From the IMG/VR virus record IMGVR_UViG_3300020172_002753, positions 1-22,985 of that record: DNA of 22,985 nucleotides, one strand, 5' to 3'. The stretch comes from a virus. Under the pieces are notes generated by a model. The model made no database searches. It had not been told where the DNA came from and saw only the letters and a list, made by a program, of their open reading frames with translations. The position numbers and the translations under genes were made by a program. This document shows positions 1-20,144 of the stretch, in pieces. Every line of letters begins with the position of its first letter. Position 1 is the stretch's first letter.

Positions 1-3000
1 GCTAAACTTGGTATAAATTATCATAATTTAACTTCAGAACAAGCTACAGAAATGCTTAAAAACAATCCTGTGCCATACAGGGGTGAACCTGCTTTCTTTT
101 ATAATGGAGCAGTATTTATTGTTGGAGATAATGTTAAACCTGGTATTCTTTTACATGAGTTTTCACATCCTTTACTTCAAGGTATAAGAAAATCCAATCC
201 TCAACTATTTAATAATTTATACAATCAATTATCTAAAACAGAAGAAGGTCTTGAAATCATAGCATATATAACAAAAGCATATCCAGAATTAGAAATAGAT
301 TCAGATTTATTTAAGGAAGAAGCATTAGCATTTGCTATGCAACTAAAATCTATGAATAAACTTGAAAATAAAATTGAAACAGAAGGGTTTGAGTCTTTTA
401 TGACCAAGTTATTAGCTTCAATAAAACAGTTATTACGTGAAATATTTGGGACTGGTGTAAACTTGAAAAACCTTAATGAATCAACATCTCTTGATGAATT
501 AGCTGAAATGCTACTTGATGACACTATGTTTGATTTTGGAGAAGTAAATCTAACAGAAGATGATTTGGTAATGTATATTAAAGATATTTTTACAGAAGCA
601 GATAAACTCACATCCAGTGTTAAAGCCAATGTTTTACAAGGAATGGTAAATGAAACTTATGCAAGTAATAAACAAACTGTAAATGAAATTAAAGAATTTA
701 AATCTGATAAAGTAACAAGAGAAATGTTAGAAAAAGCTTTAAAAAAGCAAAATACAACAAACTTATTACCTGGTGTAGATGAAATTCTTAAAGGATATCA
801 AAATATTAATAATTTATCTACAGTATTAGATGAAGATTTAGAAGATTTAGAAAAAACAAAACAAATGGCTGCGGCTTTAATTAATAGTATTGATAGGATA
901 AATACATCAAGTAATAATATAATTAAAGAAATAAACAATATAAATAAACAACCTGATTTAATTAGTAATAGAAATACAATTGCTTTATTAGGTCTTTATA
1001 AAAACACTTCTCTTTCTTGGTTAAATATAATTGGTCAAATTAATGAACTTTTAGATGAATCTGAAATAGATAAAAACAGTGAGTTTTATTCACTTATTAC
1101 TAGTATTGTTAATAATGCTACTGTAATTAATTCTAAAATTGCTCAAATTTATAAAAAAGGAAACATTCAAACTTTTATAGAAATTACTGGTTACATGAAT
1201 GAATTTGTAAATAATGAGTTAAAATCTAATTTAGGTATTGCTTTAAAGAAATCATTTTCTGAATCTGAGTTAGAAGCAGCAGTTGATGATTTATATAAAA
1301 AAGTTGTTAATCAAAAATTTACTCCTGAAGATGCTCAAGCTCTTTATGATAAAGGTGTTCCAGCAAATGTTCTTCAAGAATTTATTGACAAGTACAATAA
1401 ATATATAGTAAATGAAGATAGAATAAAAGATGCTCTTACTGGACATGCTAAAGATGTGAGTTGGTTTAATAGATGGTTAGAATCTTATAGTTCTAGTAAT
1501 GATATTATAGTAGGTCCTTTAGCTATGTTTATTCAAAACCAAAAAACTGAAGTAGAAACTAAAGTTTGGAGAATGTCTCAAGATTTTAGAGCTCAATTAG
1601 AAAAATTACTTCCACAAGTAAATTTTAGTAAACTAAATTCTACTCAAATAAGAGATATGGTTGCTGAAAAAGACCAGATATTTTATTTTAATAAAAAAAC
1701 TGGAAAATATGAATCTAAAGATGTTTATACTTTCTTAAATGAATTTGGAAATGGATGGAGATTTAAACTAGATGAATTAGAATTTTTATATGAAGAAGCT
1801 AAAAAAACTGATGATAAAGCTAACATTGCAAAAACTCTTAATGACTTAAGACAATTTAATGAAGATTATATGTGGCAAGAGTTTTCATTAGATTATTATG
1901 AAAAAGATGATCTCTTTAAAAACTCTGATATTGGAGTATTAGCATATGCAGCTAGAAGAAGTGCCTTGGAAAATTTTGTCAACTTACAAAACAGTTTGCA
2001 AAAAGAATATGAAAGATTTGAAAGACATAGTGAATTAAAAGAAGCTTTTAAAACTTATGAAAGATTGTATTCTTTACAAAATACAGATGGAACTCAAAAA
2101 GTTGATGATCCAGCAAAAGGTATTTATGATAAATCAATTGCTGAATTATTAATTAAACACAGACAAGAAACTAGTAAATTTTATGAATGGGTTCCAATTA
2201 TTAATTCTTTAGATTCAGCATATAATGAATTTGTATCTGAATTACTTACTAAAAATATTAAAAAAGATAGTAAAGAATATAATAAACTACTAAGAGATTG
2301 GCAAAAACAAAATATTAGAGTTGTTTATTCTCAAGAATATTATGATGAAAGAACTAAATTATTTGATAGATTAAATTCTATTCAATCTCAAATTAATGAA
2401 CAATTAAAAACAGATTACAATGTATCTGATGAATACAAAAAAATATTAGATTTATTGTACACATTTAAAGATGATTTTGGACAACCAGATCCTACACAAT
2501 TAGGAGAAGAAAGACTTAAAAAAATAAAAGATATACAACAAAATATAATTAATTTAAGACAAAAAATAGATAAATATACTGGTTTATCAAAAGAAGATGC
2601 AAATACACTTCATGAATTAATTATTAAATCAAGTGATGAAGAATTAACTGATGAAGAAGCTGAAGAATTAGATAGATTAATTACTGCTAAAAAAGATATT
2701 GATATTAATTTAGTTGAATCTTTGTCAGAAGTAATAGGTGAACTATCAGATATTTCTAGTAAGTATCCAACAGATTACTACATGGAAGCTTTAGAAACAC
2801 ATTTGTCAAAATATGATAACATTCCTGCTTTTACTGATGTTACAGTAGATAACTTTATTAATGGTAAATTATTTCAAGAATTACTTGATCCAGAAAGTGA
2901 TTTATATGAAAAAGAATTGTTTAATTGGTTTGATTTAAATCATGTTGAAATTAAAGTTTATGAAGATGGTGAATTAGTTACAAAATATCAGAGAACTGCA

Positions 3001-5457
3001 GCTAATTCTTATAGCAAACCAACTAACCCAAAACATTTTATTAATACTAAAATAAATGATAACCAAACTGGACAAGTTATTTCTATTATAGGTGTTCCTA
3101 ATATAAGACACTCAAGAAGAGAAGTTAAAAATGAATATAGAACAATACCAAGAGGTTCTAAAAGAACAGATTATGTTGGAAAATTTATTGATAATAAAGG
3201 AAACTTTTTACCAAGATCTTTTGACCCAAGTTCTAAAAATAGTGCAAAAAATAGTAAATATATTAGTGATAAATTTAAAAAAATAAAATCTAATCCTAAC
3301 TCTCCAGAGTATAAGTTATTAGAACTAATGAAAAATTATCATTTACAATTACAAGAAGGAGCTTCTACTTATGGTAAACTTTATTTAGATGTACCAAGAT
3401 ATGGTATTGAAAGAGGAGATTTCTATCAAGTTTTACAAAAAGGAGAATATGGAGAAAGATTTAAAGAAGTTAGAAGTAATGTACAAGAATGGTTAAAACA
3501 AACATTTGGTAAATCAGTACAAGATAATTTAGATCAATTTAATTACAATCCTGAAAACAATTTAGTAAATACAGATTTACAAGGGAATCAGATTTCCTAT
3601 ATCCCTGTAACAGGTATTTATAATTTAGATGTAAAAAATGTAGATGCTGATATATTTAATTCATTATTTAAATATGGTCTTTCAGTACAAACACAAAGTG
3701 CATTAATTAAAAGTTTACCATTAGTAAACTCAATTATGGAAACTTTAGAAGATCCTGCTAATCAACTTAAAAACTTAGACTCATTTTCAAAAAGTATTTA
3801 TAAATTAAGAAAAAAACAACAAAATCCAAATAAACCTAATTCTGTAAACAATAGAGCAAGTCAAGTAAGATCACTTATTGAAAGAGAGTATAATGGAAGA
3901 CAAGCAGTTGGTATTGAAGAAAACCATCCTGTTTTAAGTAAATGGTTAACGGCATTAACTAGTAGATCTAGTAGAGCTGCTTTAGCATTAAACATACCAT
4001 CAGATCTTAAAAATCAAGTATCTGGTTATATTCAAACTATTATTGAAGCCTCTGGAAACAGATTTATTTCTGGTAGAGATCTAGCTTTGTCTGCAACATG
4101 GACAACTAAAGCTATGTTAGAATGGACTACTAAAGGAATTTATGAAATAGGTCCTGGTGCAATTACAACACAATTAGTTCAAGTTTTTGATCCTAATTTT
4201 AAATCAACAGATGAAAATGGTACAACTATATACAGGTCTTTATATAAAGATTTAATAAATGGTGAATGGATGTATATGCACCGTAAGTTTGGTGAAATGG
4301 AAGTTGCTATGAGATTGTTTGGAGCATTTCTACATGCTGAAAAAATTGAACAAACTTATTCAGATGGTTCAAAAAGTTTAATAAATTATTCAGATGTTTG
4401 GGAAAAAAATGATTTAGGAATACTTAAGCTTAAAGAAGGTATTCATCCAGGTTGGGGTTATGAATCTGTATATCATACATATACTAAAGGTGAAAAATTA
4501 GAAGATATTGCAAAAAAATATAATGTAACAGTAGAAGAACTTAAAGCTAAAAATAGAGTTAACTCTGAAATTTTACTTAAAGATGGTCAAGAAATTGTTA
4601 TTTCTAAATCAGAATATTTTATGCAATTTAAAAATAAACTACAAGCTACATCAAGAGCACTATTTGGAGTTTATGATACATTTGGTCAACCAGAAGGTAA
4701 TAAGTTAATAATGTACCGTATGTTTTTCTTTATGAGAAAATGGTTTACACCAATGTTTGCTAATAGATTTGGAATGGATCTTTCTAAAGAAAATTTTGGA
4801 GGAGCTAGATATGATTGGGCAATGGGAAGAACTACAAAAGGTTTTTATGTAGAAGCATTTCAAGCTTTTTATAAAATAATTAAATCAAAAGGTGTAGACT
4901 ATCAATATCTTACTGATGAACAAAAAACATCACTTAAAAAAGTTAGTGCAGAAGGATTAATAATAATTGCATCTGCTTTATTAGCTTCTATGTTATTTGG
5001 ATTTGATGATGATGATCCAGAAAAATGGAAAAAACTAAAAGCTAAATCAGGAGCTTTATTTACTGATGAATTTAATACTTATGGTTTTATATCTAATCAT
5101 GCTTTGTTATTATTATTAGGTTTACAAGCTGAAACTGGTGCATTTGTACCATTACCTTCTATACACGGTTTCAATTTAGGTGCTGATGATTATGCAAAAA
5201 TGTTAACTTCAACTACAACAGCATTTGGAAATACATTGCTAACTTATATTGAAATCTTTGGGGATGTGTTAAATTTAATTACTTTTAATGATGAAGCTAT
5301 AAGATATAAAAAAGATGTAGGTCCTTATTGGTGGCAGAAAAAAGGAGAATTAAAAACTTATAAAAGAGTTTTTAATATGTTAGGTTTAACAGGTGGTATT
5401 GGAGATCCAGAAAAAGGAATACAAAACTTGAAAAAAGGTTCTACTAGAATTAGATAA
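1..5457 (+). CDS. Giant virion/cargo protein, 3' part, with zincin-like and LysM-like modules
   Basis: The frame is open from base 1, 17 codons before the first ATG at 52, so the gene is cut by the left edge and its true start lies outside. About 1818 residues are visible. Numbering from the ATG at 52, residues 35-39 read HEFSH, a zinc metalloprotease HExxH motif, with EEA at 89-91 as a plausible third ligand (gluzincin-like). A long Lys/Glu/Asn-rich, mostly helical region follows. Residues ~1474-1519 look like a LysM module (KGEKLEDIAKKYNVTVEEL...). Residues ~1634-1652 are hydrophobic, followed by an Asp run and a second hydrophobic patch near 1683-1692. Very large multi-domain proteins packaged in the capsid and probably injected are typical of crAss-like phages. 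I infer that role from size, position and strand. Proteolysis and peptidoglycan binding are possible activities, not shown. It ends at TAA, just before a bidirectional terminator. Confidence 0.72.
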   Translation, partial: AKLGINYHNLTSEQATEMLKNNPVPYRGEPAFFYNGAVFIVGDNVKPGILLHEFSHPLLQGIRKSNPQLFNNLYNQLSKTEEGLEIIAYITKAYPELEIDSDLFKEEALAFAMQLKSMNKLENKIETEGFESFMTKLLASIKQLLREIFGTGVNLKNLNESTSLDELAEMLLDDTMFDFGEVNLTEDDLVMYIKDIFTEADKLTSSVKANVLQGMVNETYASNKQTVNEIKEFKSDKVTREMLEKALKKQNTTNLLPGVDEILKGYQNINNLSTVLDEDLEDLEKTKQMAAALINSIDRINTSSNNIIKEINNINKQPDLISNRNTIALLGLYKNTSLSWLNIIGQINELLDESEIDKNSEFYSLITSIVNNATVINSKIAQIYKKGNIQTFIEITGYMNEFVNNELKSNLGIALKKSFSESELEAAVDDLYKKVVNQKFTPEDAQALYDKGVPANVLQEFIDKYNKYIVNEDRIKDALTGHAKDVSWFNRWLESYSSSNDIIVGPLAMFIQNQKTEVETKVWRMSQDFRAQLEKLLPQVNFSKLNSTQIRDMVAEKDQIFYFNKKTGKYESKDVYTFLNEFGNGWRFKLDELEFLYEEAKKTDDKANIAKTLNDLRQFNEDYMWQEFSLDYYEKDDLFKNSDIGVLAYAARRSALENFVNLQNSLQKEYERFERHSELKEAFKTYERLYSLQNTDGTQKVDDPAKGIYDKSIAELLIKHRQETSKFYEWVPIINSLDSAYNEFVSELLTKNIKKDSKEYNKLLRDWQKQNIRVVYSQEYYDERTKLFDRLNSIQSQINEQLKTDYNVSDEYKKILDLLYTFKDDFGQPDPTQLGEERLKKIKDIQQNIINLRQKIDKYTGLSKEDANTLHELIIKSSDEELTDEEAEELDRLITAKKDIDINLVESLSEVIGELSDISSKYPTDYYMEALETHLSKYDNIPAFTDVTVDNFINGKLFQELLDPESDLYEKELFNWFDLNHVEIKVYEDGELVTKYQRTAANSYSKPTNPKHFINTKINDNQTGQVISIIGVPNIRHSRREVKNEYRTIPRGSKRTDYVGKFIDNKGNFLPRSFDPSSKNSAKNSKYISDKFKKIKSNPNSPEYKLLELMKNYHLQLQEGASTYGKLYLDVPRYGIERGDFYQVLQKGEYGERFKEVRSNVQEWLKQTFGKSVQDNLDQFNYNPENNLVNTDLQGNQISYIPVTGIYNLDVKNVDADIFNSLFKYGLSVQTQSALIKSLPLVNSIMETLEDPANQLKNLDSFSKSIYKLRKKQQNPNKPNSVNNRASQVRSLIEREYNGRQAVGIEENHPVLSKWLTALTSRSSRAALALNIPSDLKNQVSGYIQTIIEASGNRFISGRDLALSATWTTKAMLEWTTKGIYEIGPGAITTQLVQVFDPNFKSTDENGTTIYRSLYKDLINGEWMYMHRKFGEMEVAMRLFGAFLHAEKIEQTYSDGSKSLINYSDVWEKNDLGILKLKEGIHPGWGYESVYHTYTKGEKLEDIAKKYNVTVEELKAKNRVNSEILLKDGQEIVISKSEYFMQFKNKLQATSRALFGVYDTFGQPEGNKLIMYRMFFFMRKWFTPMFANRFGMDLSKENFGGARYDWAMGRTTKGFYVEAFQAFYKIIKSKGVDYQYLTDEQKTSLKKVSAEGLIIIASALLASMLFGFDDDDPEKWKKLKAKSGALFTDEFNTYGFISNHALLLLLGLQAETGAFVPLPSIHGFNLGADDYAKMLTSTTTAFGNTLLTYIEIFGDVLNLITFNDEAIRYKKDVGPYWWQKKGELKTYKRVFNMLGLTGGIGDPEKGIQNLKKGSTRIR

Positions 5458-6175: not shown

Positions 6176-7342
6176 TTAAAACAAATCAGGTATGCAATCA
6201 GAATCTTCTTCAGTTGAAGGACTAAAGTCTAATGAAAAATCTGGTTCTTCTTTAGCTTTCTCTTCATTTGGTATTCTTATTAAGATATCATCAAGTGATA
6301 ATCTTTCAATTTTTGGTTCTTCTATAGGAGTAACAAATTCATTGTGTGCTTCTATAGCTTCTAACAACGGAGCTTCAAATGTATTTCCTACAGGATCAGT
6401 ATACTGAATTAAATCATTTACATTATCTTCAACAGCAAACTCATCTTCAGTTTCAGGTTCTTCTATAGCAGCATATTTTATATCTTCATCAATTATATCA
6501 GCTTCAATATCAGCTTTTATATTATCTCTTTCAATTGCTAATTCAGATAACTCAGGTTCTTCTACTAAAGGTGTGCACACAACTATTTCTTCTTCAACAA
6601 TAGCTACTGAAGTTACAGGAACATATTTAGAAAACTTATAAATAGTATCTATAAAATAATGCAACACTCTTTGATCTTCCATCCAAGTTTTAGGATGTGA
6701 CTGTTGTAAAGCAATAGTAACATAATTATAAAAAGCCCACAAACTATCTGAGTTTGCAAAGTTTTTCATTGGTCTTTCAATATAGTTTTTTACAATATTT
6801 GCTTGTTCTGTTGTTAAAATACCATACTCTGCAAATAATATACCTAAAAGTTGAGCTTTTTTTCTGAGATCTAAACTTTTGTCAATCATCTCATTCCTAT
6901 CGGACAACAACTGATTGTAATACTGATGTGCATTTTTAATTTGCTCATCAATTGTATCTTTTGTCTCAGTATCTGCAGTACCCATATGTTTTCTAATCCA
7001 AACTCCCATATCACCAGATACCATTACAGTACTAGTAGTTTCAATATAAGCTCCAACAATACATTTAAATTTAACTTGTTTGTTGTAACTATTTGTCCAA
7101 GCAAACATCATAGATAATTCAGGATCATTGTTAAAATTTAACTTGTGAATACCTTGAGCTATTTGACCATCTGCTGTACATCTATATTCTTCATGTAACA
7201 TTCCAAACCCAGCAAGTGCTAAAGCTTGGCGAACATAATCAATCACAAATTGGTGACTGATTACTGTATATGTTGTTCCGTGTTGTGGTAACGGCACATT
7301 AATTAAATGTGCTTTGCTACATTCGCTAATTCTTTTTGGCAT
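6176..7342 (-). CDS. DUF932-like phage/plasmid protein with acidic tail ending in DLF
   Basis: This 388-aa protein resembles the DUF932 (phage/plasmid-like) family. The cues are a central TNSYNKQVKF segment (83-92) followed by a glycine-rich strand region and SGDMGVW (109-115), and a C-terminal-domain segment DSLWAFYNYVT (199-209) comparable to the LWxxYNxxT motif of that family. No enzymatic function is established for the family. Residues ~250-388 form a long Glu/Asp-rich, probably disordered tail that ends ...DSDCIPDLF. Acidic tails with a terminal aromatic residue occur in phage and bacterial ssDNA-binding proteins, so a replication-partner role is possible but is my inference. Its ATG shares one base with the polymerase stop (TAATG), so the two are probably translationally coupled. 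A terminator follows it. Confidence 0.6.
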   Translation of the reverse strand: MPKRISECSKAHLINVPLPQHGTTYTVISHQFVIDYVRQALALAGFGMLHEEYRCTADGQIAQGIHKLNFNNDPELSMMFAWTNSYNKQVKFKCIVGAYIETTSTVMVSGDMGVWIRKHMGTADTETKDTIDEQIKNAHQYYNQLLSDRNEMIDKSLDLRKKAQLLGILFAEYGILTTEQANIVKNYIERPMKNFANSDSLWAFYNYVTIALQQSHPKTWMEDQRVLHYFIDTIYKFSKYVPVTSVAIVEEEIVVCTPLVEEPELSELAIERDNIKADIEADIIDEDIKYAAIEEPETEDEFAVEDNVNDLIQYTDPVGNTFEAPLLEAIEAHNEFVTPIEEPKIERLSLDDILIRIPNEEKAKEEPDFSLDFSPSTEEDSDCIPDLF

Positions 7343-9279
7343 TATAATAAAATTAATTGTTTAGTAACTTGTTCAAGAGCATCAATCTCTTTACGGACCT
7401 TTTGAATATAATATTTTAAATTAATATTATATTCTTCAAAAGGTTTTTCTACATAATTTATAAATACAGTTTGCATCCATTGTCCTGCTTCAATTTGAAT
7501 TTCTCTATCATTAGAAAAATGTGTTTTAATAATTTTACTTCCTGAATTAGAAATATAATACCTAAGTGTATGTTGAAGTTCATTTTTAATATAATCACCT
7601 TCTTTAACACAATGTTCAACAAATTTCCAATCACCTTTGATTTTAACTCCACCACAATAATCAAATATATTTTTATTTGAGTTTATATAAGTTTCTGGAT
7701 CAATACCGTTAACAAAATAATTAAAAATAGTTTTAGCAACAATCAAGTTACTTTTATTTTTATGCAAATGAGAATATTTATGATTTTCTAAATCTTCCCA
7801 TTCAAATCTACCTTTACATTTAGCTTTACCATCTGTATAGACACTAATATAATTATTTACATCCCAAATATACATTGCTTTATAATCAGCAAATTCTAAT
7901 GTAAGTTTTGTATTAATTTCCCATTCTTTACAAATTTGTTCATATATTGGTAAATATTCTTTTTTAAATTTTAAAGTTGCACCATCTGTATTAGTTTGTA
8001 ATAATAAAGCATCAGGTATTTGAACTAATAGTTTTTCAATTAACATACTTAATAAAAGCTGACCATTAATTGTAGTCTGCATTGTATAAGAACTATCAAA
8101 TAACCATGAATATTCTGAGTTTGAATTACCATACGTAGCATTAGCAGCTTCTTTAAACCCTTCTATAATTGCAACATCTCTTTGATCTTTAGGTTTTAAT
8201 TTTTCATTAAGTCTAACATCTACAATATCATTTTTATAAACTTGAAAAAATTCTTTTCCTAAATGTGCAGGATACATTTCATTTACACAAGCAATACTAG
8301 GATATAGTGATGCTACATCAAGATCTTTTATTATAAACTCATCATCTGCTAAATATATACCTGGCTCAATACATTGATGAATACCACCCGCACCATAAAA
8401 AAACTCATTACCTTTAAATTTTAATTGGAATTTAAAATCATTTTTAGTATCCCAAATAATTTTATCATGTAATTTTTCTAAAAAGTTTTGAAAAGGAGCT
8501 GTATCAAATCTAATATATGGGAATAATATTTCAGAAATTTTAATACCATTTCTATATGTACCATTTTCTTTTACATTTTTTTTATTTTTACCTGTAGCAT
8601 CACAATATAATTTTAATAATAATTCACTACCTAACTTTGTATTAGAATAATTATAACAATTTAAATCATATTTGTTTTTAATTTTAATTCTTACATCAAT
8701 CAAAGGTTTTGATAAATGCATTATTTTTTTAGTAGACTCAACATCATTAATACAATATTTGACAATAATATCAACTTCTTCTTGAGTATTTACTTTTACA
8801 GTATGATGAATAGGCATATCTTGAAGTGTTAACCAATCCATACTAAATTGAGTCCACTTTAATGATGTTCTTTTATTAGCATTGTCCCAATGATTAATTT
8901 TAAATACATCAAGTTGTTGAATACTTAATTTCCACTCAGGATATTTAGAAAACTCATTATTTTTACTTTTTGTAATAGTTTCTTGTGCATTATCATATAA
9001 ATAAGTAACTAACTTATCAGTAGAACATTTTAAAAAGTAAGTTTTGTTTTCTAATATATATTGAATAATTTGAGAATCAAAACTTAACCCATTAAAACTA
9101 ACATGCCATTCTTTTAATTTTATATTATTTTTTAAAAATACAATTAGTTCTTTAATATCATTTCTATTAGTTTCAGGATGTATAATAAATATTTTAGTAT
9201 TATCTGTTTTAAAATCTTGGAATACTGCAACAAAAAGATTTTTCATTGTTTCTAAATCCATTACCCAATGTGTTCTCAT
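7342..9279 (-). CDS. Family B DNA polymerase with 3'-5' exonuclease domain
   Basis: The 645-aa protein carries all family B landmarks in order. Exo I is D8-x-E10, Exo II has N63 and D68 (NGLSFD), and Exo III is YCINDVEST with D179. The YxGG-type linker is YGAGG (295-299). Motif A is DVASLYPS with catalytic D321, motif B is KEAANATYG (376-384), and motif C is TNTDGA with D432. The basic KGR motif is at 489-491. In motif C the first Asp of the usual DTD is Asn, but the metal-binding Asp is kept, so activity is expected. Motifs A and B are only ~55 residues apart, leaving no room for the TPR2 insertion of phi29-like protein-primed enzymes, so RNA priming by the window's own primase is likely. 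It synthesises and proofreads phage DNA. Its stop overlaps the start of the DUF932-like gene. Confidence 0.95.
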   Translation of the reverse strand: MRTHWVMDLETMKNLFVAVFQDFKTDNTKIFIIHPETNRNDIKELIVFLKNNIKLKEWHVSFNGLSFDSQIIQYILENKTYFLKCSTDKLVTYLYDNAQETITKSKNNEFSKYPEWKLSIQQLDVFKINHWDNANKRTSLKWTQFSMDWLTLQDMPIHHTVKVNTQEEVDIIVKYCINDVESTKKIMHLSKPLIDVRIKIKNKYDLNCYNYSNTKLGSELLLKLYCDATGKNKKNVKENGTYRNGIKISEILFPYIRFDTAPFQNFLEKLHDKIIWDTKNDFKFQLKFKGNEFFYGAGGIHQCIEPGIYLADDEFIIKDLDVASLYPSIACVNEMYPAHLGKEFFQVYKNDIVDVRLNEKLKPKDQRDVAIIEGFKEAANATYGNSNSEYSWLFDSSYTMQTTINGQLLLSMLIEKLLVQIPDALLLQTNTDGATLKFKKEYLPIYEQICKEWEINTKLTLEFADYKAMYIWDVNNYISVYTDGKAKCKGRFEWEDLENHKYSHLHKNKSNLIVAKTIFNYFVNGIDPETYINSNKNIFDYCGGVKIKGDWKFVEHCVKEGDYIKNELQHTLRYYISNSGSKIIKTHFSNDREIQIEAGQWMQTVFINYVEKPFEEYNINLKYYIQKVRKEIDALEQVTKQLILL

Positions 9280-10349: not shown

Positions 10350-11369
10350 TTACAATTTTACATTATTAACAACTAATGAATATGGTAAGTCATATCTTTT
10401 ATTGTCATAATGCCACTTAACAGTTTTCACTATTTCATTAAAAGACTCCTTCCATTTTTCTAAAGTTTCTTGACTAACTTGAAATGGATAAACTAAATTA
10501 TATTTATCAATAACAATAAATGTTACTTGAAATTTCCAATCAAATTTATCTTCTTTATCAGCAAGATATTTGTTGTTTGCAAGAATAGTATAAATAACGG
10601 CTTGCATCCAATATTTATAAAATTCCACAGTTTCTGGAAAATTTTGAATTGCTTTTGATGTAGTTTTGAGATCATTAATAAATATAGTTTTAGATTCAGA
10701 ATCAACAACTATATGATCAAGAACTCCATGAAGACCAAAGTTTAATTTAGGGTTGTTATACTCTAAATGCAATTCACTTTCTACAACAAGATGATTATCT
10801 TCAGGTTGTCTATCTAATTGTAATAAAGACCTAACATCTTTATTATTTCTTAAAATTTCAACCTGAACTCTGCAGCCACTCAGAGTTTCTTGATCCACAA
10901 CAGTTTTACCCATGCTATTTTTCAAAAATTCAAAATAAGTCTTGTTTTCTTCTGTAAGAATTTTGTCAATCCTTTGCTGATCTGTTTTGAGAGTTTGGTA
11001 AAGATTAGCTGTGAGAAGTAGGTTGAGGATGTCTTGAGAGTAGTCTTCCAAAGATAATGAATTATTACTAATTGACAAGTGAATTTTAAATATATCACTA
11101 ATAATTTTTCTTTGACTATCTGTTGGTATTTTACCAGGTAATTCTAAGAAATTCTCATCAAACTTTTCTTCTTCAAATAGTAAACAATGTAGAACACGAC
11201 CTGCAACTAAGTGTGCATCTGTAGAGTCTTCCCTTTGATTAAGAACATAATGATTATAAAAAACTACAGGTGAAAATAATAACTTATTTATTCCACTATA
11301 ACTGAAGTAAAACTTCTTCCTATAGAACTTATCAAGTTCTTCATTAGAACCAATCAACATTTGACTCAT
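10350..11369 (-). CDS. PD-(D/E)XK nuclease (RecE/Cas4-like exonuclease)
   Basis: The 339-aa protein shows the core of phage PD-(D/E)XK exonucleases of the RecE/DUF3799/Cas4-like type. H61 lies in AGRVLH (56-61). E197/E199 stand before the core strand, D218 is in GVLDH (215-219), and the catalytic D-x-K is D233-L-K235 followed by TT. A helix with the QxxxY motif (Q256-AVIY) completes the site. Such enzymes resect DNA ends for recombination or process replicating DNA, so a partnership with the Sak4-like ATPase encoded in the same block is likely. The first ATG overlaps the end of the 442-aa gene by 26 bases; M4 (11360) is an alternative start that still overlaps. Nuclease family is well supported; substrate polarity is unknown. 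Confidence 0.85.
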   Translation of the reverse strand: MSQMLIGSNEELDKFYRKKFYFSYSGINKLLFSPVVFYNHYVLNQREDSTDAHLVAGRVLHCLLFEEEKFDENFLELPGKIPTDSQRKIISDIFKIHLSISNNSLSLEDYSQDILNLLLTANLYQTLKTDQQRIDKILTEENKTYFEFLKNSMGKTVVDQETLSGCRVQVEILRNNKDVRSLLQLDRQPEDNHLVVESELHLEYNNPKLNFGLHGVLDHIVVDSESKTIFINDLKTTSKAIQNFPETVEFYKYWMQAVIYTILANNKYLADKEDKFDWKFQVTFIVIDKYNLVYPFQVSQETLEKWKESFNEIVKTVKWHYDNKRYDLPYSLVVNNVKL

Positions 11370-12672
11370 CTTCTTCTTTTATTACTGGGTTGATATCTAC
11401 TTGCTCTTCTATATCTTTAATATCTTCAATTGTATTTTCTACAAAGGGTAAGACATTCTCTTCTCTTACTGTTTCTATTACTCTTACTGTTTCTTCAGAT
11501 TCATGAATAACATTTATATTTTTTAATTCAAGAGAAATATTTTCTTCTACACTTTCTATATTTAAACTTTCAATGTTTATATCTTCTACAAACACTTCTT
11601 TTTCAATTACTGGTATATAATCATTTTGTATAGAAAACACATAATTTTGATTTAATATATTATGTATTTCATCTGTAACAGTAATATTTTTTACTTGAAA
11701 ATAATCTGTATTACCACTTTGTTGAATCTCTTTACTGTAATGATTCATTAATATATCTAACTTATCTGCAGTAAGGACATTAAAAGTTTTTAAAGATTTA
11801 ATAATATCATCAATATCTGTACTATATCTATACTTTTCTTTTCCAATTAAAGAACACAAACTTTTAAAGTTTACATGATTTCTTGTATGGCTATCATAAA
11901 TATTATATGAATGATCTTTAAACAACATTTCAATAAAAAGTAAACTTTCATTAACATTTGAATTAGCCATAATTTCCATTGCCAAAACATGATTGTCTCT
12001 ATCATTACTATCAAGCATGTTTGTTAACTGACCAAACATCTCATAATCAATTATTACATTTTTAGAATTAATTGCAGATGACAATGCATTAACATTATAA
12101 ATTGTTAGTGTTTCTAAAGTTTCAATTTCATTAATATATTCATTATCAATTACTTTATATGTATTTGAATCATCAAAACTATCAATAATATTAATTTTAT
12201 TGTTATTTATAATTTCTTTTAAATTTTTTAAAGTTGAATAATTATAATAAATATTTAATTCATCATTATTTAATGCATGTGCTTCAATTATATCTTTTAC
12301 ATCTGATATATCTGTAGGATCAATTTGAAAAGCACTTGATAAATAAGGTATTAATTTATTAAATTCAGCTACTGGTAAATTATATACCCACATATTACTT
12401 GAAACAAAATATTCTTCTTGTGTTTTATCACAACCAAAAATATAATCAGCTACATTAAGATCTCTTACTGTTTTAGTACCATTATCTTCATTAAATTGTT
12501 TAACCTTTACTCTAGGGACATTAACACCAGGTAAAAGATATATTTTATCACCTTTTTTTGGTACAAAATCTAATGTTTCAATATTAAACAATTGTTCTTG
12601 TGAACCTATCATATATTTTAAATCAACATTAAAAATATTATAATCTAAATTTATTAAAATTTTTGCTTTCAT
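11344..12672 (-). CDS. Hypothetical 442-aa protein with helical repeat-like domain and acidic tail ending in DWF
   Basis: I do not recognise the full protein. The N-terminal ~100 residues look beta-rich (ILINLDYNIFNVDL, FVPKKGDKIYLLPG). Residues ~209-260 contain YEMFGQLTNMLDSNDRDNHV and continue with an A-x-E-I-x-x-x-S-N-V pattern. This closely parallels the N-termini of the two small proteins at 15261-15665 and 15662-16060, so the three share a helical domain. Residues ~355-442 are a long Glu/Ile/Asn-rich tail ending ESNVDWF, like the acidic tails with terminal aromatics found on ssDNA-binding proteins. It follows the MoxR terminator by 16 bases and overlaps the nuclease gene. Possible roles are a replication accessory factor or a partner of the MoxR/VWA complex; both are inference. 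Confidence 0.62.
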   Translation of the reverse strand: MKAKILINLDYNIFNVDLKYMIGSQEQLFNIETLDFVPKKGDKIYLLPGVNVPRVKVKQFNEDNGTKTVRDLNVADYIFGCDKTQEEYFVSSNMWVYNLPVAEFNKLIPYLSSAFQIDPTDISDVKDIIEAHALNNDELNIYYNYSTLKNLKEIINNNKINIIDSFDDSNTYKVIDNEYINEIETLETLTIYNVNALSSAINSKNVIIDYEMFGQLTNMLDSNDRDNHVLAMEIMANSNVNESLLFIEMLFKDHSYNIYDSHTRNHVNFKSLCSLIGKEKYRYSTDIDDIIKSLKTFNVLTADKLDILMNHYSKEIQQSGNTDYFQVKNITVTDEIHNILNQNYVFSIQNDYIPVIEKEVFVEDINIESLNIESVEENISLELKNINVIHESEETVRVIETVREENVLPFVENTIEDIKDIEEQVDINPVIKEEDESNVDWF

Positions 12673-12688
12673 TTTTTAAATATAAAAA

Positions 12689-12713
12689 GATAGGGATATA
12701 TATTATCCCTATC
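12689..12713 (-). terminator. Rho-independent terminator after the MoxR gene
   Basis: A perfect 10-bp stem, GATAGGGATA (12689-12698) with TATCCCTATC (12704-12713), closes the loop TATAT. On the - strand it is followed by TTTTTATATTTAAAAA. It lies about 50 bases after the MoxR stop and only 16 bases before the ATG of the 442-aa gene, so no promoter fits between hairpin and start. Confidence 0.85.
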
Positions 12714-12764: not shown

Positions 12765-13940
12765 TTATTTAACTGACATCTTTACTACATTAGCATTCAT
12801 CATCAATGGAGCAAATTTAACTTTGTTACCATTGATTAATTCTTTGATGATGTAATATTGCAAATCATCAGTAAAAGAATCACAATCTGTAGTAAGCTTA
12901 ATAATTCTTTCAATCATTGATTTATTAATAGAATTTTTTTCTGAGTAAGTCAAACTATAATTAATAATTCTTGTTGCAACTACACTAGATAAATCAGCAC
13001 GGAACTCATCATCTGTTCCTATAGAAGACTTAAGTGTGTTTAACACATACTGCTCATCTTTTTCAAAAATATCTTTAGGTGCTATAATTTTATCTAATTT
13101 ATTATTAATAAACATAGTAAACATAGTTGCAAATTCAGGACCTACTGAACCTTCACCAATCATTTGAATAAGTGGTAAAGTTTTTGAAAAATCTTCTATT
13201 GAACTAATTGATTTGAAAAAATTTACAATTGATCTTGGATTAACAGATTGAGTTACTAATTCAGGATGTAATAAAAGAAAATTAATAGTTCTGCTATCTA
13301 AATCTTTCTTTTCAGCCCATTTACCCCATACATTTGAATCAAATTTTAATTCAACTGTAATGTATCTAGTTTTTTGAGCAATATCAAGACTTGTAACATA
13401 ATAATCTCCAGTATCAGGATTTGATGTAAGAATAATTGACCATTTTTTTGGTAATTTCCAAGAAGCATATGTTTGTTGATCACACAACTCCATAACAGCT
13501 TGTTGAAATCTCATATCAGCTCTAGAAAAATCATCAATTAATAAAATACCACCTTCACCTTTACCATGAACCCATTCAGGAATAGCATGTGACATTCTTT
13601 TATTAGTCACTTTATACCCTTTTTTCATAGCAGCATCAATTTGATGCTCATTAATCCACATTTTCTTACCTTCAGAATTTTCTATTTCAAATTCTTTAAC
13701 AGGAAAACCAATTAAATCACCTAATTCTTCAAGTTGAGATAAATTAATTTTAATAAAATCTAAATTTAATTCTTCAGCTAATTGTTTTACACAAGATGTT
13801 TTACCTAAACCAGCTTCACCAATACAGTTTACAGTTACAGGAACTTCTCCTTTTTCTTGAATAACAGTATTATTCACAATCATATATTTCATAAAATTTT
13901 TAAACTCTTCTGTGTTCAATTGTACTTGTTGTGCACTCAT
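12765..13940 (-). CDS. MoxR-type AAA+ ATPase
   Basis: The 391-aa protein has a complete AAA+ core of the MoxR/AAA_5 kind. Walker A is GEAGLGKT (41-48), Walker B is ILLIDDFSRAD (132-142), sensor 1 is TSNP (172-175), a likely arginine finger is R192 (QKTRY), and an NPRS motif near 237-240 is the sensor-2 helix. The MSHAIPEW and WKLPKKW segments match the substrate-loop insertions usual in MoxR proteins. MoxR ATPases form hexamers that remodel or activate target proteins, normally with a VWA-domain partner, and the gene immediately upstream encodes such a protein (20 bases between them). In phages the target is unknown; replication-complex assembly or host interference are options. A T-rich leader precedes the ATG and a terminator follows. 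Confidence 0.9.
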   Translation of the reverse strand: MSAQQVQLNTEEFKNFMKYMIVNNTVIQEKGEVPVTVNCIGEAGLGKTSCVKQLAEELNLDFIKINLSQLEELGDLIGFPVKEFEIENSEGKKMWINEHQIDAAMKKGYKVTNKRMSHAIPEWVHGKGEGGILLIDDFSRADMRFQQAVMELCDQQTYASWKLPKKWSIILTSNPDTGDYYVTSLDIAQKTRYITVELKFDSNVWGKWAEKKDLDSRTINFLLLHPELVTQSVNPRSIVNFFKSISSIEDFSKTLPLIQMIGEGSVGPEFATMFTMFINNKLDKIIAPKDIFEKDEQYVLNTLKSSIGTDDEFRADLSSVVATRIINYSLTYSEKNSINKSMIERIIKLTTDCDSFTDDLQYYIIKELINGNKVKFAPLMMNANVVKMSVK

Positions 13941-13960
13941 CTTTTTTAATTTTTAATTTT

Positions 13961-15268
13961 TTATAACTCTAATTTAATCACTTTACCAGGAAGTGATGCA
14001 TTCATTTCTGATCTTTCAGAAATCACCCATAAAATAGGTTTTTTTGGTTTTATACTAGTATTACATTCACCATCTGTAAAATACACCAGATTTGTAAACT
14101 TTCTGTCATTAGCAATATAATATTCTAAAACAGGATCAAAACTTGTACCACCTCTACCTTTTACAGCAATTTCATTTTTACCTTTATAAGATTCAATACT
14201 ATTAATATTAGTATCACATTGAATAATTGTGATATCAACACCTGATTTATAAATATGATGAATTTCATTCATAAACTCTTTAAGTTCTTCATCACATACT
14301 GATCCAGATGTATCAATAGCCAACAACATATGTTGTTTCATTTTAATTTTAAGTCCAGGAAATTCACTAAATCTTTTATTTTCTTTTCTCCTAACTTTTT
14401 TAGTATATATTTTAGTACTGATTCCTGTAAATCTTCTAATGTAACCTCTCCAATCAAACTTAGGTGGAATAAATTCTTCAACTTTAATAAGTTCTTCTAT
14501 TTCACCAGGTATTCTACCATGTTTTTTACTAGTTTGTTTTTTAGCTTCATTAAGAATGCCAGTGATTTGTTTATCAATAAGTTTTTGCTCTGCTTCACTT
14601 ATATTTTCAAATTCACCCCATGTAGCATGTTCATCACCAGAACCCATTCCTTGTTCCATTTGATCAAGTAATTGATCTAAAGCTTCTGAACCTGAAGTAC
14701 CATTTTGTTCTTTTTCTTTTTGTCCATCCTTCAGCTTCCTATAGTAGTACTTAGTACCAGCTTTTCTTTCAAGGTTTAACTCATGATAATCATCAATCAT
14801 TATACCTCTCATAGGTAGCTTAGATTCAATTTCTTTTAATTCTTCTGGTGTAGCATTATTATCTTTTGCTTGTTTATACTCAGCCAATACAACATCTTTA
14901 AGAGCTGTATATTCATCTGTAGTATAATCACCACCAGGTAACCATGTATTATCTATATACTGGTTAATTTCCATATCCATTGCAATATTAGCCATCTTTC
15001 TATCAGCAAAACTGTGATAGACTGTTAAATGACCAAATGCAATATGTAAGAGCTCATGTTTTAATAAACCTAATCTATGTAAATCAGTTAATTCACACCA
15101 GAAAGTCTCATTAATTGCTAACTGGTAGTTTATTCCATTTTTACTTACTCCTGCTGTAGGAATATCATTTCTCCAATGTTTATTTAAATGTATTAAGAAA
15201 TACCCATAATAAGGGTCTTTAAGCATAAGGTCTTTACTAGCCCTGCTTAATAAATCTACTTTACTCAT
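13961..15268 (-). CDS. VWA-domain protein with N-terminal metallopeptidase-like domain (DUF2201-like)
   Basis: The 435-aa protein has two domains. The N-terminal part contains HELLHIAFGH (71-80), a zincin HExxH signature, followed by NIAMDMEINQ (94-103), as in DUF2201-type putative metallopeptidases. A Gln/Glu/Gly-rich linker (~180-215) follows. The C-terminal VWA domain has an intact MIDAS: DTSGS (319-323), T375 in GRGGTSF, and D399 in FTDGE. VWA proteins of this type act as adaptors for MoxR ATPases, so the protein is expected to bind substrates or metal and work with the MoxR protein encoded 20 bases downstream. Whether the HExxH site is catalytic or only structural is not known. Its start overlaps the stop of the 134-aa gene by 8 bases. 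Confidence 0.88.
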   Translation of the reverse strand: MSKVDLLSRASKDLMLKDPYYGYFLIHLNKHWRNDIPTAGVSKNGINYQLAINETFWCELTDLHRLGLLKHELLHIAFGHLTVYHSFADRKMANIAMDMEINQYIDNTWLPGGDYTTDEYTALKDVVLAEYKQAKDNNATPEELKEIESKLPMRGIMIDDYHELNLERKAGTKYYYRKLKDGQKEKEQNGTSGSEALDQLLDQMEQGMGSGDEHATWGEFENISEAEQKLIDKQITGILNEAKKQTSKKHGRIPGEIEELIKVEEFIPPKFDWRGYIRRFTGISTKIYTKKVRRKENKRFSEFPGLKIKMKQHMLLAIDTSGSVCDEELKEFMNEIHHIYKSGVDITIIQCDTNINSIESYKGKNEIAVKGRGGTSFDPVLEYYIANDRKFTNLVYFTDGECNTSIKPKKPILWVISERSEMNASLPGKVIKLEL

Positions 15269-15665
15269 AAATTTTTTTTATTTGAATTTCATTTACAAAA
15301 TCATACCCATATTCATTTAAACCTTTTTTTATATTAGAAAAATATAATTCAAAATACAATTCAATACAAGAAGATTGAAGAGAATTATTATTTAAAATAA
15401 TATATAATAATGTTAAACTTTTAGCACTATCTTTTAAAGCTATTAATAAATGATTACCAAATCTTTTATAAAGTTCATCATAACAAGTAGTATTTACCCA
15501 AAATTCTTTAGGTTTATTAGAAAAAATCATAATAATAAATGCCCATTGAATATTTTGATCAAGATTATTTGTTTCTAATAATGTTTTACCTATTTCTTGA
15601 TTACTTTCATCACTAGAGTTAATCATTGCAATCAGATTCTTACATTCATCTTTATTAAAAATCAT
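15261..15665 (-). CDS. Small helical protein, paralogue of the adjacent 132-aa protein
   Basis: This 134-aa protein is not recognised as a named family. Its N-terminus (CKNLIAMINSSDESNQEIG, then L-x-x-x-N-N-L-D) aligns with the start of the 132-aa neighbour and with residues ~211-245 of the 442-aa protein. The shared pattern is hydrophobic-xx-Met-x-x-Ser-x-Asp-x-x-Asn followed by a second helix and N-[VL]-[DN]. The C-terminus (FSNIKKGLNEYGYDF) matches the neighbour's end (VETLKKSMKSWGYP). It looks all-helical, without catalytic motifs. It overlaps the 132-aa gene by 4 bases (ATGA) and the VWA gene by 8, so it is probably translated together with the VWA/MoxR pair and may be an adaptor for it. 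That role is inference. Confidence 0.68.
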   Translation of the reverse strand: MIFNKDECKNLIAMINSSDESNQEIGKTLLETNNLDQNIQWAFIIMIFSNKPKEFWVNTTCYDELYKRFGNHLLIALKDSAKSLTLLYIILNNNSLQSSCIELYFELYFSNIKKGLNEYGYDFVNEIQIKKIYE

Positions 15666-16060
15666 TTTAATGTTATTGAATAATTTAATTTATCAGTTGG
15701 ATAACCCCAACTCTTCATACTTTTCTTTAAAGTTTCAACATGCAATTGTAAAAATAAATCTACTACATCAGTTTCAGCATTTAAATCAAGTAGTGTTGAT
15801 AAAACATTATTGATAGTAGGTTTATATTCACTATATATATTTGTGCTTTTTATAAATTTAATAACATTAGGTATTTCTTTTTCCCAATAACTATTATTTT
15901 TATTACTTTCTACATACAATAAAATTATAAATATTTTAGATTTATCAACATTACAATTATTTATTATTTCATTTGCAACTACATGATTACTAGTATCAGT
16001 TGATGCATACATATCCATTATACTTTTAACATGTTCACTTGTCAATATTACTTTTTTCAT
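15662..16060 (-). CDS. Small helical protein sharing a domain with its neighbour and the 442-aa protein
   Basis: This 132-aa protein is not a family I can name. Its first ~45 residues (VKSIMDMYASTDTSNHVVAN, then E-I-I-x-N-x-N-V-D-K-S) are very close to residues ~211-242 of the 442-aa protein, including the SxDxxNHVxAxEI core, and less close to the 134-aa protein downstream. The rest is predicted helical, ending in a ...LKKSMKSWGYP segment that the 134-aa protein shares. No membrane segment or enzymatic motif is seen. It begins 2 bases after the stop of the 31-aa gene and overlaps the next gene by ATGA. Local duplication probably created this pair. Confidence 0.68.
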   Translation of the reverse strand: MKKVILTSEHVKSIMDMYASTDTSNHVVANEIINNCNVDKSKIFIILLYVESNKNNSYWEKEIPNVIKFIKSTNIYSEYKPTINNVLSTLLDLNAETDVVDLFLQLHVETLKKSMKSWGYPTDKLNYSITLK

Positions 16061-17679: not shown

Positions 17680-18678
17680 TTATATATACATCCATTTATA
17701 TCCTACTGCTGTTGATTGATTCTCATTAGTTAAGCATTTATAAATTGAACCCGGAGAAACTTTCAGATAATCAGCAGCTTCCTTTACAGTTTTAAATTTT
17801 CTAAGTTCTTCTTCTGTAATTTTATCAAGCATTTTAACTCTAAAAGGAAGAGCAAGTTCATAATTTAAGTATTTAGAATAAGACCATCTGTGTTGTAAAC
17901 CACTGTTAAAGTTTATATTTTCTTTACAATGTTTAGTAATTGTTGATACTGCAACACCTGTTATTTTACTTGCTTCAATAATGCTTTTATACTCTCCAAC
18001 TAACAAACCTTCTAAGTTATACTGATAAACTTTAATATTTCTATTAGGATTATTTCTCATTTTTTCTTTAGTAAACTCAGTATGTTTAAACTTAATTTTA
18101 TTAGCTTTCATCTTTTGAATATGTTCTAAAGAATACTTTCTACCTAACATGGATAATTTAGCTTTTTCTCTACTTTTTTCAGATACTATTCTACCCTTAC
18201 TTTTTTCTGAAATTTTTAGTCTAGTTTCTTTGGTAAGTATAACTTTTTTTCCACAGTTTTTACCATGATATTTACAATAATTAGGATAATTTATTTCCTT
18301 ACCACAAGTTAAACATTTAACTAACTTACTATTTCCTTTAACAAATTTTGCTATTTCTATTTTTGAGGGGTTTCTTACAGGATGCTTTGGATCTCCAGGT
18401 TCAATATTATAACCTATAGTTCTATTAGTAAGTTTATGTAATGTTATATAAAAATGTTCTCTTTCACATAACTTATCTTTTGAGCATTCTTCAACAATAA
18501 TAAAATCAAAACTATTTTCATTGTATTTATTCCAAGCATATTGTAAATGTTTGTTTGCATGCAAGTTTCTTCTAAGTTGTGATTTATGACTATACCATCT
18601 AGCTTGTATATTAGTAGAATAACCAATATAAAATTTACCTGTGATCTTATTCAAGATCTTATAAATACCTGTTTTCAT
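17680..18678 (-). CDS. Free-standing GIY-YIG homing endonuclease with NUMOD DNA-binding modules
   Basis: The 332-aa protein begins with a GIY-YIG nuclease domain: G4-I-Y6, Y17-I-G19, catalytic R27, E74 (EREHFYI) and N91 (GYNI). A Cys/His zinc-finger-like segment follows (C122, C125, C135, H138, C142). Then come NUMOD3-type repeats (~148-190, KISEKSKGR and SMLGRKYSLEH) and two NUMOD1-like helix-turn-helix modules (~215-250 with ASKITGVAVSTI; ~295-318 with AADYLKVSPGSI). This is the classic layout of phage homing endonucleases, which cut an allele lacking the element so that repair copies it in. It is not inside an intron: it sits between complete genes and is separated from both, unlike the overlapping genes around it. 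It is therefore probably a selfish insertion in the operon. Confidence 0.92.
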   Translation of the reverse strand: MKTGIYKILNKITGKFYIGYSTNIQARWYSHKSQLRRNLHANKHLQYAWNKYNENSFDFIIVEECSKDKLCEREHFYITLHKLTNRTIGYNIEPGDPKHPVRNPSKIEIAKFVKGNSKLVKCLTCGKEINYPNYCKYHGKNCGKKVILTKETRLKISEKSKGRIVSEKSREKAKLSMLGRKYSLEHIQKMKANKIKFKHTEFTKEKMRNNPNRNIKVYQYNLEGLLVGEYKSIIEASKITGVAVSTITKHCKENINFNSGLQHRWSYSKYLNYELALPFRVKMLDKITEEELRKFKTVKEAADYLKVSPGSIYKCLTNENQSTAVGYKWMYI

Positions 18679-18729: not shown

Positions 18730-19173
18730 CTAAAACTTTATGTTTCCTCTATAAAATCTTCCTAAAATGTTAGAGTTTAAATATTTATCATCTAATATAC
18801 AATCATTACAAAATAAGTATTTGCATTCATAATAGGTAAGTTCCATACTTGAATAACATATTTTAAGTATTTCTCTTTTTATTGTCACACTTTGCTTATG
18901 TGCTTGCTTTAGTACTGTATTTGAACTGTAATAATTAAGAAAATCAGGTCTAATAACCCTAGTATACTTTTTAAGTCTTTTATCAGTACTCATAGCCAAA
19001 GCTTTCTTACCTAAAGGTCTTTTTATATTAGCAAAAAAGTTTTTCTTACCTATGTAAGAAACAGATTTACCATCTATTATAGCTGACATAAGATAGATAA
19101 ATCCTATTCCTCCTTCTGGAATGTCTAATTCTCCAAATACTTTTCCTTTGTATGTCCAAAAATCCACATTCAT
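18730..19173 (-). CDS. Small GIY-YIG-superfamily phage endonuclease
   Basis: The 147-aa protein looks like a compact phage nuclease of the GIY-YIG superfamily. The first motif is F25-I-Y27 (GFIYLM) and the second is SYIGKKNFF (39-47). A basic stretch follows, then YYECKYLF with a candidate catalytic E116, and a closing NSNILGRFYRG with N134. Similar small proteins occur in many tailed phages, where they may process DNA or act in recombination. No DNA-binding NUMOD modules are present, unlike its neighbour. Its ATG overlaps the primase stop (ATGA), so it is a fixed, coupled member of the replication operon rather than an insertion. It ends in TAG, showing that TAG is a normal stop in this genome. 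Confidence 0.7.
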   Translation of the reverse strand: MNVDFWTYKGKVFGELDIPEGGIGFIYLMSAIIDGKSVSYIGKKNFFANIKRPLGKKALAMSTDKRLKKYTRVIRPDFLNYYSSNTVLKQAHKQSVTIKREILKICYSSMELTYYECKYLFCNDCILDDKYLNSNILGRFYRGNIKF

Positions 19174-20144
19174 AATTTACTTTTTATTAGATTAAATACA
19201 ATGTTTCTTGTTTCTTCAATACCTCTGGCTTTAACAGTATCTGAAATGTCTTTCTCAAATGGTAATATTAAGTAGTCAAAACCATATCTTTTTTGATATG
19301 CTTTAGAAGCTTCAATTCCAGGTTCATCATTATCAAAAAGTACTATAATTTTAGTATATTTATCAATATACTTTTTCATTATATTTTCAGAAATAACAGT
19401 GTTTTCACTATCTGGAGCAATAACTTCAACATTACTAATACCAAAAGTTTTAAAAGACATAATATCTTTTAGAGATTTAGTAAGAATAAGATACTTAGAT
19501 TCAAAAGTAACTTGTTCAGAACCTTGAATATAATCAAAGACTTTAATAAACTTACTTACTTTGTTTTTTGGTTGATAAATTTTATATAGTGTACCATCAT
19601 TTTTAAAATAACCATATGTATAGTTATTTTCAAATCTAAGTTCTTTTACAATACCATCATTATCAGTTTTACTAAGTATAAAATATTGTAAAGGTTGAAC
19701 ATTGTGTTGACTTAACATTTTAGAACCTATTTTGTAACTCATCCAAAAATCTTGATCAAGATTATTCCAGTATCTAATTTCATAATCAGTAACTTCATAT
19801 CTACTTTCAAGTTTAAACTCTCTAGGTGTAATATTATTTTTAGATATATAATCAGAATAGTCATTCATTATTTTTCTAACAGCTATACCTCTAGATTCAA
19901 GATTATAATATAACATTACAAATTCAATTGCATCACCAGATTTACTTGAAGAAAAATCTTTAAAAGTATAATTACCTAATTTGTTACAATATATACAAAA
20001 AGATGCTGTTTTCTCATTAGTAAATACAGATCTAATTTTAATATCTTGACCAGTTAACTTTTCTGTTAAATTTAAATAAAATTCAAATATCCATTCTCTT
20101 GGTATTTGATTTAAATCACTTATAATACTAGTAGTTGAAATCAT
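19170..20144 (-). CDS. DNA primase with degenerate zinc-binding domain and Toprim domain
   Basis: The 324-aa protein follows the DnaG plan. The N-terminal part keeps the CHC2-fold sequence logic (FTNEKTASFCIY... KSGDAIEFVMLYY, 41-80), but the zinc ligands are mostly gone: only C50 and C53 remain, and the usual Cys-x-x-Cys ribbon is replaced by FKDFSSSKSG. A Toprim domain covers ~215-305, with the D271-N-D273 motif (VLFDNDEPG) and a KDISD segment (298-302). The usual Glu of the first Toprim motif (xxEGxxD) is replaced: the aligned text is LTKSLKDI. It should make or support RNA primers for the helicase and polymerase in this window. It is coupled to the small GIY-YIG gene and preceded by a terminator hairpin 21 bases upstream of its ATG. 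Confidence 0.85.
   Translation of the reverse strand: MISTTSIISDLNQIPREWIFEFYLNLTEKLTGQDIKIRSVFTNEKTASFCIYCNKLGNYTFKDFSSSKSGDAIEFVMLYYNLESRGIAVRKIMNDYSDYISKNNITPREFKLESRYEVTDYEIRYWNNLDQDFWMSYKIGSKMLSQHNVQPLQYFILSKTDNDGIVKELRFENNYTYGYFKNDGTLYKIYQPKNKVSKFIKVFDYIQGSEQVTFESKYLILTKSLKDIMSFKTFGISNVEVIAPDSENTVISENIMKKYIDKYTKIIVLFDNDEPGIEASKAYQKRYGFDYLILPFEKDISDTVKARGIEETRNIVFNLIKSKL

Follow-up and report, generated by a model that had tools for sequence, protein, structure and literature searches.

A MoxR-VWA gene pair in the replication block of an uncultivated phage, and its constant neighbour P442

We analysed a 22,985-base virus record (IMG/VR record IMGVR_UViG_3300020172_002753, hereafter the window; all unprefixed coordinates are window positions) that carries genes for a MoxR-class AAA+ ATPase and for a metallopeptidase with a VWA domain (referred to below as MoxR and VWA). 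The initial annotation had placed this pair in a four-gene unit, with two small helical proteins on one side and a terminator on the other. Comparison with related loci draws different boundaries: VWA, MoxR and P442, a protein encoded beyond the terminator, are the invariant core, and the small helical protein, S, is an accessory. Tentatively, and at somewhat less than an even chance, we propose that this phage MoxR-VWA remodelling machine serves replication or recombination proteins, with P442 as its dedicated adaptor or client. The components in the window are as follows.

12765..13940 (-): MoxR-class AAA+ ATPase, 391 amino acids (phrog_1297, 3.3e-35)
13961..15268 (-): zincin-like metallopeptidase plus VWA (DUF2201_N and DUF2201), 435 amino acids (phrog_1314, 8.3e-68)
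15261..15665 (-): S134, small protein, orthologue of the single S of close relatives
15662..16060 (-): S132, second, diverged S copy, extra in the window
12689..12713 (-): terminator-like hairpin, 10-bp stem and T run, directly upstream of the P442 start
11344..12672 (-): P442, across the hairpin from MoxR

The four open reading frames (ORFs) of the initial annotation (MoxR, VWA, S134 and S132) were found where it had placed them, as were the overlaps of 4 bases between S132 and S134 and of 8 bases between S134 and VWA. Searches of IMG/VR yielded at least 596 related stretches by VWA and at least 514 by MoxR, and the best 80 of each were examined; ORFs were labelled by BLAST against the window proteins in 150 loci, some of which come from one contig, so that not all are independent. 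The recurring order was S, VWA, MoxR, P442, exonuclease, P196, P130 and DNA polymerase, with the primase and a SegE-like ORF upstream. P442 followed MoxR in each of the 71 loci that extended by more than 5 kb beyond it. At first labelling S preceded VWA in 140 of 146 loci, and of the six exceptions three (L103, L105 and L123) did have an S ORF, which had been overlooked, so that the count rises to about 143 of 146; the co-occurrence of small helical genes with MoxR and VWA, on which the four-gene proposal depended, is thus borne out. Reverse searches from P442 and from S recovered the S-VWA-MoxR-P442 order in most loci, and loci found in this way without VWA and MoxR were contig-end truncations only. 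Given the gene order in relatives and these reverse searches, P442 is an overlooked component of the module. Gut records with matches to the pair (L316-L318) were set aside, their ORFs looking like those of a bacterial chromosome and not of a phage.

VWA is preceded by a single S gene in 127 loci; only 2 loci have two. In a divergent sublineage (L042, L046 and L080) VWA has no preceding S gene: in L042 and L046 the primase and VWA genes share 8 bases, and an unrelated ORF of 128 amino acids separates primase from VWA in L080. MoxR and P442 are spaced by 6-7 bases in these three loci, and the hairpin therefore cannot fit. The sole S-type domain detected in the two longer records of the S-less sublineage is the one inside P442. 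It is because this sublineage keeps VWA, MoxR and P442 that we regard these three as the core; the four-gene unit with its original boundaries does not stand, since relatives carry one S, and some none, and since P442 belongs to the module.

The link between P442 and S is one of homology as well as of position. The helical domain of P442 (residues ~205-316) is homologous to S (BLASTP 2.7e-7; hhalign probability 95.7%, E 9.5e-9). In the AlphaFold2 model residues 1-350, beginning with an alpha/beta N-terminal region, have a mean predicted local distance difference test score (pLDDT) of ~90, and the tail (358-442) is disordered. The same tail is acidic, with 26 Asp or Glu against 6 Lys or Arg, and of 76 long distinct sequences 72 have WF at the C-terminus. 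The exonuclease gene begins within the end of the P442 gene, with an overlap of 26 bases in the window and of 23-29 bases in 69 of 70 cases among relatives. The N-terminus may have a weak likeness to BRCT domains: of ten members one matched PF00533 (0.009, under the cut-off), and Foldseek gave a weak match to a PARP BRCT domain (probability 0.57, 46 columns, E 1.3), but a P442 profile search of PDB sequences gave no BRCT match. P442 matched no Pfam family, and tblastn with it gave nothing in 50,697 phage records; GTDB genomes had no match either. Foldseek aligned P442 to the uncharacterised viral proteins A0A6J5LXR8, A0A8S5TL70 and A0A8S5QMV2 (this one from a CrAss-like virus), with probability 1.00 over 329-366 columns, at 12-16% identity and a TM-score of 0.30-0.45. 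Separately, a protein of 388 amino acids adjoining the polymerase (6176-7342, -) has an acidic tail too, which resembles the P442 tail and tips of the single-stranded DNA-binding protein (SSB) type and ends in IPDLF or IPDFF in relatives.

As for the small proteins, they are indeed paralogous (S132 against S134, BLASTP 8e-7) and helical, the AlphaFold2 model of S132 being all-helical at a pLDDT of 91. In a tree of S proteins, S134 and the close relatives' S fall together with a support of 0.99, far from S132. On this sequence evidence S134 is the orthologue of the relatives' S, and S132 is an extra copy, because the tree sets it apart and relatives carry a single S. Sequences of S are diverse, at ~18-32% identity to S132. 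A fold search with S132 against the PDB gave no significant match (best E 0.79), and S134 had no tblastn match in the same 50,697 phage records. In Schitoviridae (nACB1, phCDa and SBP1) a small gene separates MoxR from VWA; it was considered as a counterpart of S and dropped, because an S-profile search of nACB1 gave no match and the intervening gene of SBP1 is annotated as an HNH endonuclease.

After MoxR, where a terminator had been proposed, lies a terminator-like hairpin at 12713-12689 with a 10-bp stem and a T run. Its position is kept in most relatives, where the stems differ in sequence yet stay complementary: a stem of at least 7 pairs with at least 4 G/C occurs in 69% of 61 distinct MoxR-P442 gaps and in 0% of mononucleotide shuffles. 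The hairpin usually ends 13-17 bases before the P442 start, and read-through of it may determine how much P442 is made. An alternative pairing, a candidate antiterminator, was seen by eye in the MoxR-P442 gap of some relatives and is not universal.

The initial annotation had described MoxR as having intact Walker A and B motifs, sensor 1 and a likely arginine finger. This is right for Walker A (GEAGLGKTS), sensor 1 (TSNP) and the KTR Arg-finger candidate, to which an NPR sensor 2 can be added, and not for Walker B (LLIDD), where the catalytic Glu of the usual Asp-Glu is replaced by Asp. Residues D136 and D137 are Asp-Asp in 83 of 83 aligned homologues, in which the Walker A Lys, N174, R192 and R236 are likewise invariant. 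By contrast, Walker B reads DE in the MoxR of N4, AR9, S-TIM54, SBP1, nACB1 and phiFa, and NorQ has Glu at the corresponding position, its change to Gln defining the Walker B variant (PMC9976466). MoxR matches general AAA models, with Pfam AAA_3 just under the cut-off. Because the catalytic residues are mostly kept yet Walker B is Asp-Asp, activity of the MoxR-VWA machine is plausible and no more than that.

In VWA both Pfam domains score above their curated cut-offs (DUF2201 VWA, 1.1e-19; DUF2201_N metallopeptidase, 2e-15). The HELLH zinc site and the metal-ion-dependent adhesion site (MIDAS), described earlier as intact, are invariant in 72 of 72 homologues (zinc site H71, E72 and H75; MIDAS D319, S321, S323, T375 and D399). 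RefSeq phage records and phrog_1314 label this metallopeptidase-VWA protein "HNH endonuclease", a widespread database label that looks wrong, as the sequence is that of a zincin plus VWA. The pair does not fall within RavA-ViaA, ViaA being a VWA protein without the zincin, and no RavA or ViaA family was among the NCBIfam matches. Some relatives have MoxR genes broken up by GIY-YIG ORFs that come with group I introns (RF00028; L018 6225-6515 and 7611-7838, L064 2613-2905 and 3998-4227, MoxR being split there), and in other relatives VWA genes are split by ORFs of 235-279 amino acids. Such interruption is a common fate of conserved phage genes.

The setting of the module is that of a replication block, as first described: a DnaB-type helicase fragment, an AAA_24 ATPase, a primase, a PD-(D/E)XK exonuclease and a phage DNA polymerase surround it. 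Two of these neighbours bear directly on the argument.

10350..11369 (-): PD-(D/E)XK (exonuclease VIII-like) nuclease, its start overlapping the P442 stop
19170..20144 (-): DNA primase, in the same replication block

In relatives, too, the module shares the strand of the replication genes, with primase and helicase genes on one side of it and exonuclease and DNA polymerase genes on the other, and in a 116-kb relative it is away from the terminase and capsid genes. Gene order thus upholds a MoxR-VWA machine inside a replication block with co-conserved partner genes. The Schitoviridae order of MoxR, VWA, helicase and DNA polymerase also supports a role in replication or recombination, as do the annotated early promoter that the AR9 pair follows and the middle transcription of N4 gp24 and gp25 (PMC4193335).

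A working model can be taken from NorQ-NorD and CbbQ-CbbO, in which a MoxR hexamer acts with a MIDAS-bearing VWA partner (PMC9976466, PMC13036017). In NorQ-NorD the VWA protein inserts a finger into the MoxR pore and a linker is twisted and stretched as ATP is turned over; acidic residues of the target are the proposed ligands of the MIDAS (PMC9976466, PMC13036017). By analogy, the phage MoxR would form a hexamer whose pore VWA would plug; the MIDAS would hold an acidic residue of the target, on which ATP turnover would pull, and the zincin domain may clip it. P442, as adaptor or client, would bring a replication or recombination protein to this machine, and the P442 acidic tail is a candidate for what the MIDAS binds. 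S would be a VWA-coupled accessory engaging the same surface as the helical domain of P442. The analogy has its limits: the N-terminal domain of NorD is unrelated and is not a DUF2201_N zincin, and the bacterial systems have other targets.

Several points weigh against a role in replication or recombination. Genomic neighbourhood is no proof of target. The Asp-Asp Walker B could mean slow or absent ATP hydrolysis. These phages have short S-like helix motifs in further proteins as well (G003:45284-45706 (-) in L169 and G003:75087-75428 (+) in L170), one of which lies just upstream of the terminase gene; S is thereby weakened as a mark of an exclusive partner surface, and the sharing of S motifs is weaker evidence of a shared partner. 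Finally, virion proteomics of a Staphylococcus jumbo phage detected one peptide of a MoxR-like ATPase (PMC10638138).

The last point belongs to an alternative that we consider unlikely, namely that MoxR-VWA is a virion assembly machine which remodels structural proteins while the zincin processes them. Virion assembly was proposed for the pair of metallopeptidase-vWA and MoxR in group 2.2 jumbo phages (PMC7824862), and a role in it has been reported for a two-tailed archaeal virus; the pair of cyanophage S-TIM54 is near a virion structural gene, and virion genes lie near gp24/gp25 homologues in some N4-like phages (PMC4193335). Replication or recombination is nonetheless favoured because the module here sits on the replication strand, closely coupled to primase or exonuclease genes and apart from those for capsid and terminase, and the N4 and AR9 transcription noted above also speaks against assembly.

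Distinctly less probable is a machine directed at the host, which would remodel or cleave a host protein in takeover or counter-defence, with S and P442 recognising the target. MoxR-VWA ternary systems do act in bacterial conflict (PMC7159879), and the diversity of S, its extra copy and the S-less variants would suit such a role. However, anti-defence genes are patchy, whereas the core is near-universal in the clade, P442 is always present and the module sits among replication genes. The anti-defence role raised in the initial annotation is thus left unsupported, as PADLOC gave weak P-loop matches only and no specific defence-family match.

It is very improbable that the pair, as NorQD does, loads metal into a phage enzyme of the block, for example the nuclease that commonly follows P442, as PD-(D/E)XK nucleases normally take up Mg2+ unaided and none of the enzymes identified in the block depends on a metallocofactor. 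Metal insertion is, on the other side, an established function of a MoxR-VWA pair (PMC13036017).

Under the replication or recombination proposal, the module might amount to a dedicated replisome/recombination remodelling system, in which an Asp-Asp MoxR-VWA machine is targeted by a P442 adaptor bearing the S domain, an SSB-tail-like acidic C-terminus and WF; this stronger version is possible but doubtful. If this holds, a MoxR-VWA system would here act on a DNA replication complex, and to our knowledge no such system is known. The pair is core in N4-like phages and recurrent in jumbo phages and cyanophages. To the question of its target this clade adds an always-linked third protein, and the location of its module, which favours replication over virion assembly, makes the target directly approachable through P442.

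The pair itself does not bear out the idea of an undescribed system. Its adjacent genes belong to the phage families phrog_1297 and phrog_1314, and N4-like and jumbo phages are already known to have such pairs (PMC4193335, PMC7650795, PMC7824862). N4 gp24 (AAA+ ATPase) and gp25 (vWFA), core genes of the Schitoviridae, are the same MoxR and metallopeptidase-VWA pair beside replication genes (PMC4193335, PMC7650795), differing in that MoxR is the first gene of the two, that Walker B reads DE and that identity to the window pair is ~25-29%; no S or P442 homologue was found in N4-type phages in the searches made. The group 2.2 jumbo-phage pair, a chaperone-cochaperone pair according to its authors, has the same two-protein domain composition, and the passage describing it mentions no P442 or S partner (PMC7824862). 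A two-subunit MoxR-type chaperonin had already been named in Bacillus phage 0305phi8-36 (PMC2147016). With regard to VMAP-type ternary systems (PMC7159879), S134 and P442 had no Pfam or PADLOC match beyond chance, and no VMAP profile was compared directly. In the literature searched, which covered few subscription journals, the P442/S partnership, the S-less variant, the Asp-Asp Walker B and the constant place of the partner beside replication genes were not described.

The phage group is uncultivated and appears distantly crAss-like by sequence. Polymerase and terminase searches placed it only loosely near crAss-like and Flavobacterium phages; the terminase of one relative resembles those of both groups at 23-25% identity, and the capsid protein of this relative is similar, at 27% identity, to its counterpart in Leptolyngbya phage Lbo-JY46. 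No module homologue was found in the first 100 kb of Lbo-JY46, the nearest phage by capsid protein.

Other features of the window were also seen. A free-standing GIY-YIG/NUMOD1 homing endonuclease is encoded at 17680-18678 (-), and the SegE-like GIY-YIG protein at 18730-19173 (-) is behind the primase in most relatives. The DNA polymerase (7342-9279, -) ends in QLILL, and the polymerases of relatives end in QLSLF or QLKLF, ends of a type that matches the bacterial sliding-clamp-binding consensus. On the opposite strand a giant ORF of at least 1818 amino acids (1-5457, +) carries an HEFSH motif and a LysM domain, and giant ORFs reach 4207 amino acids in one relative.

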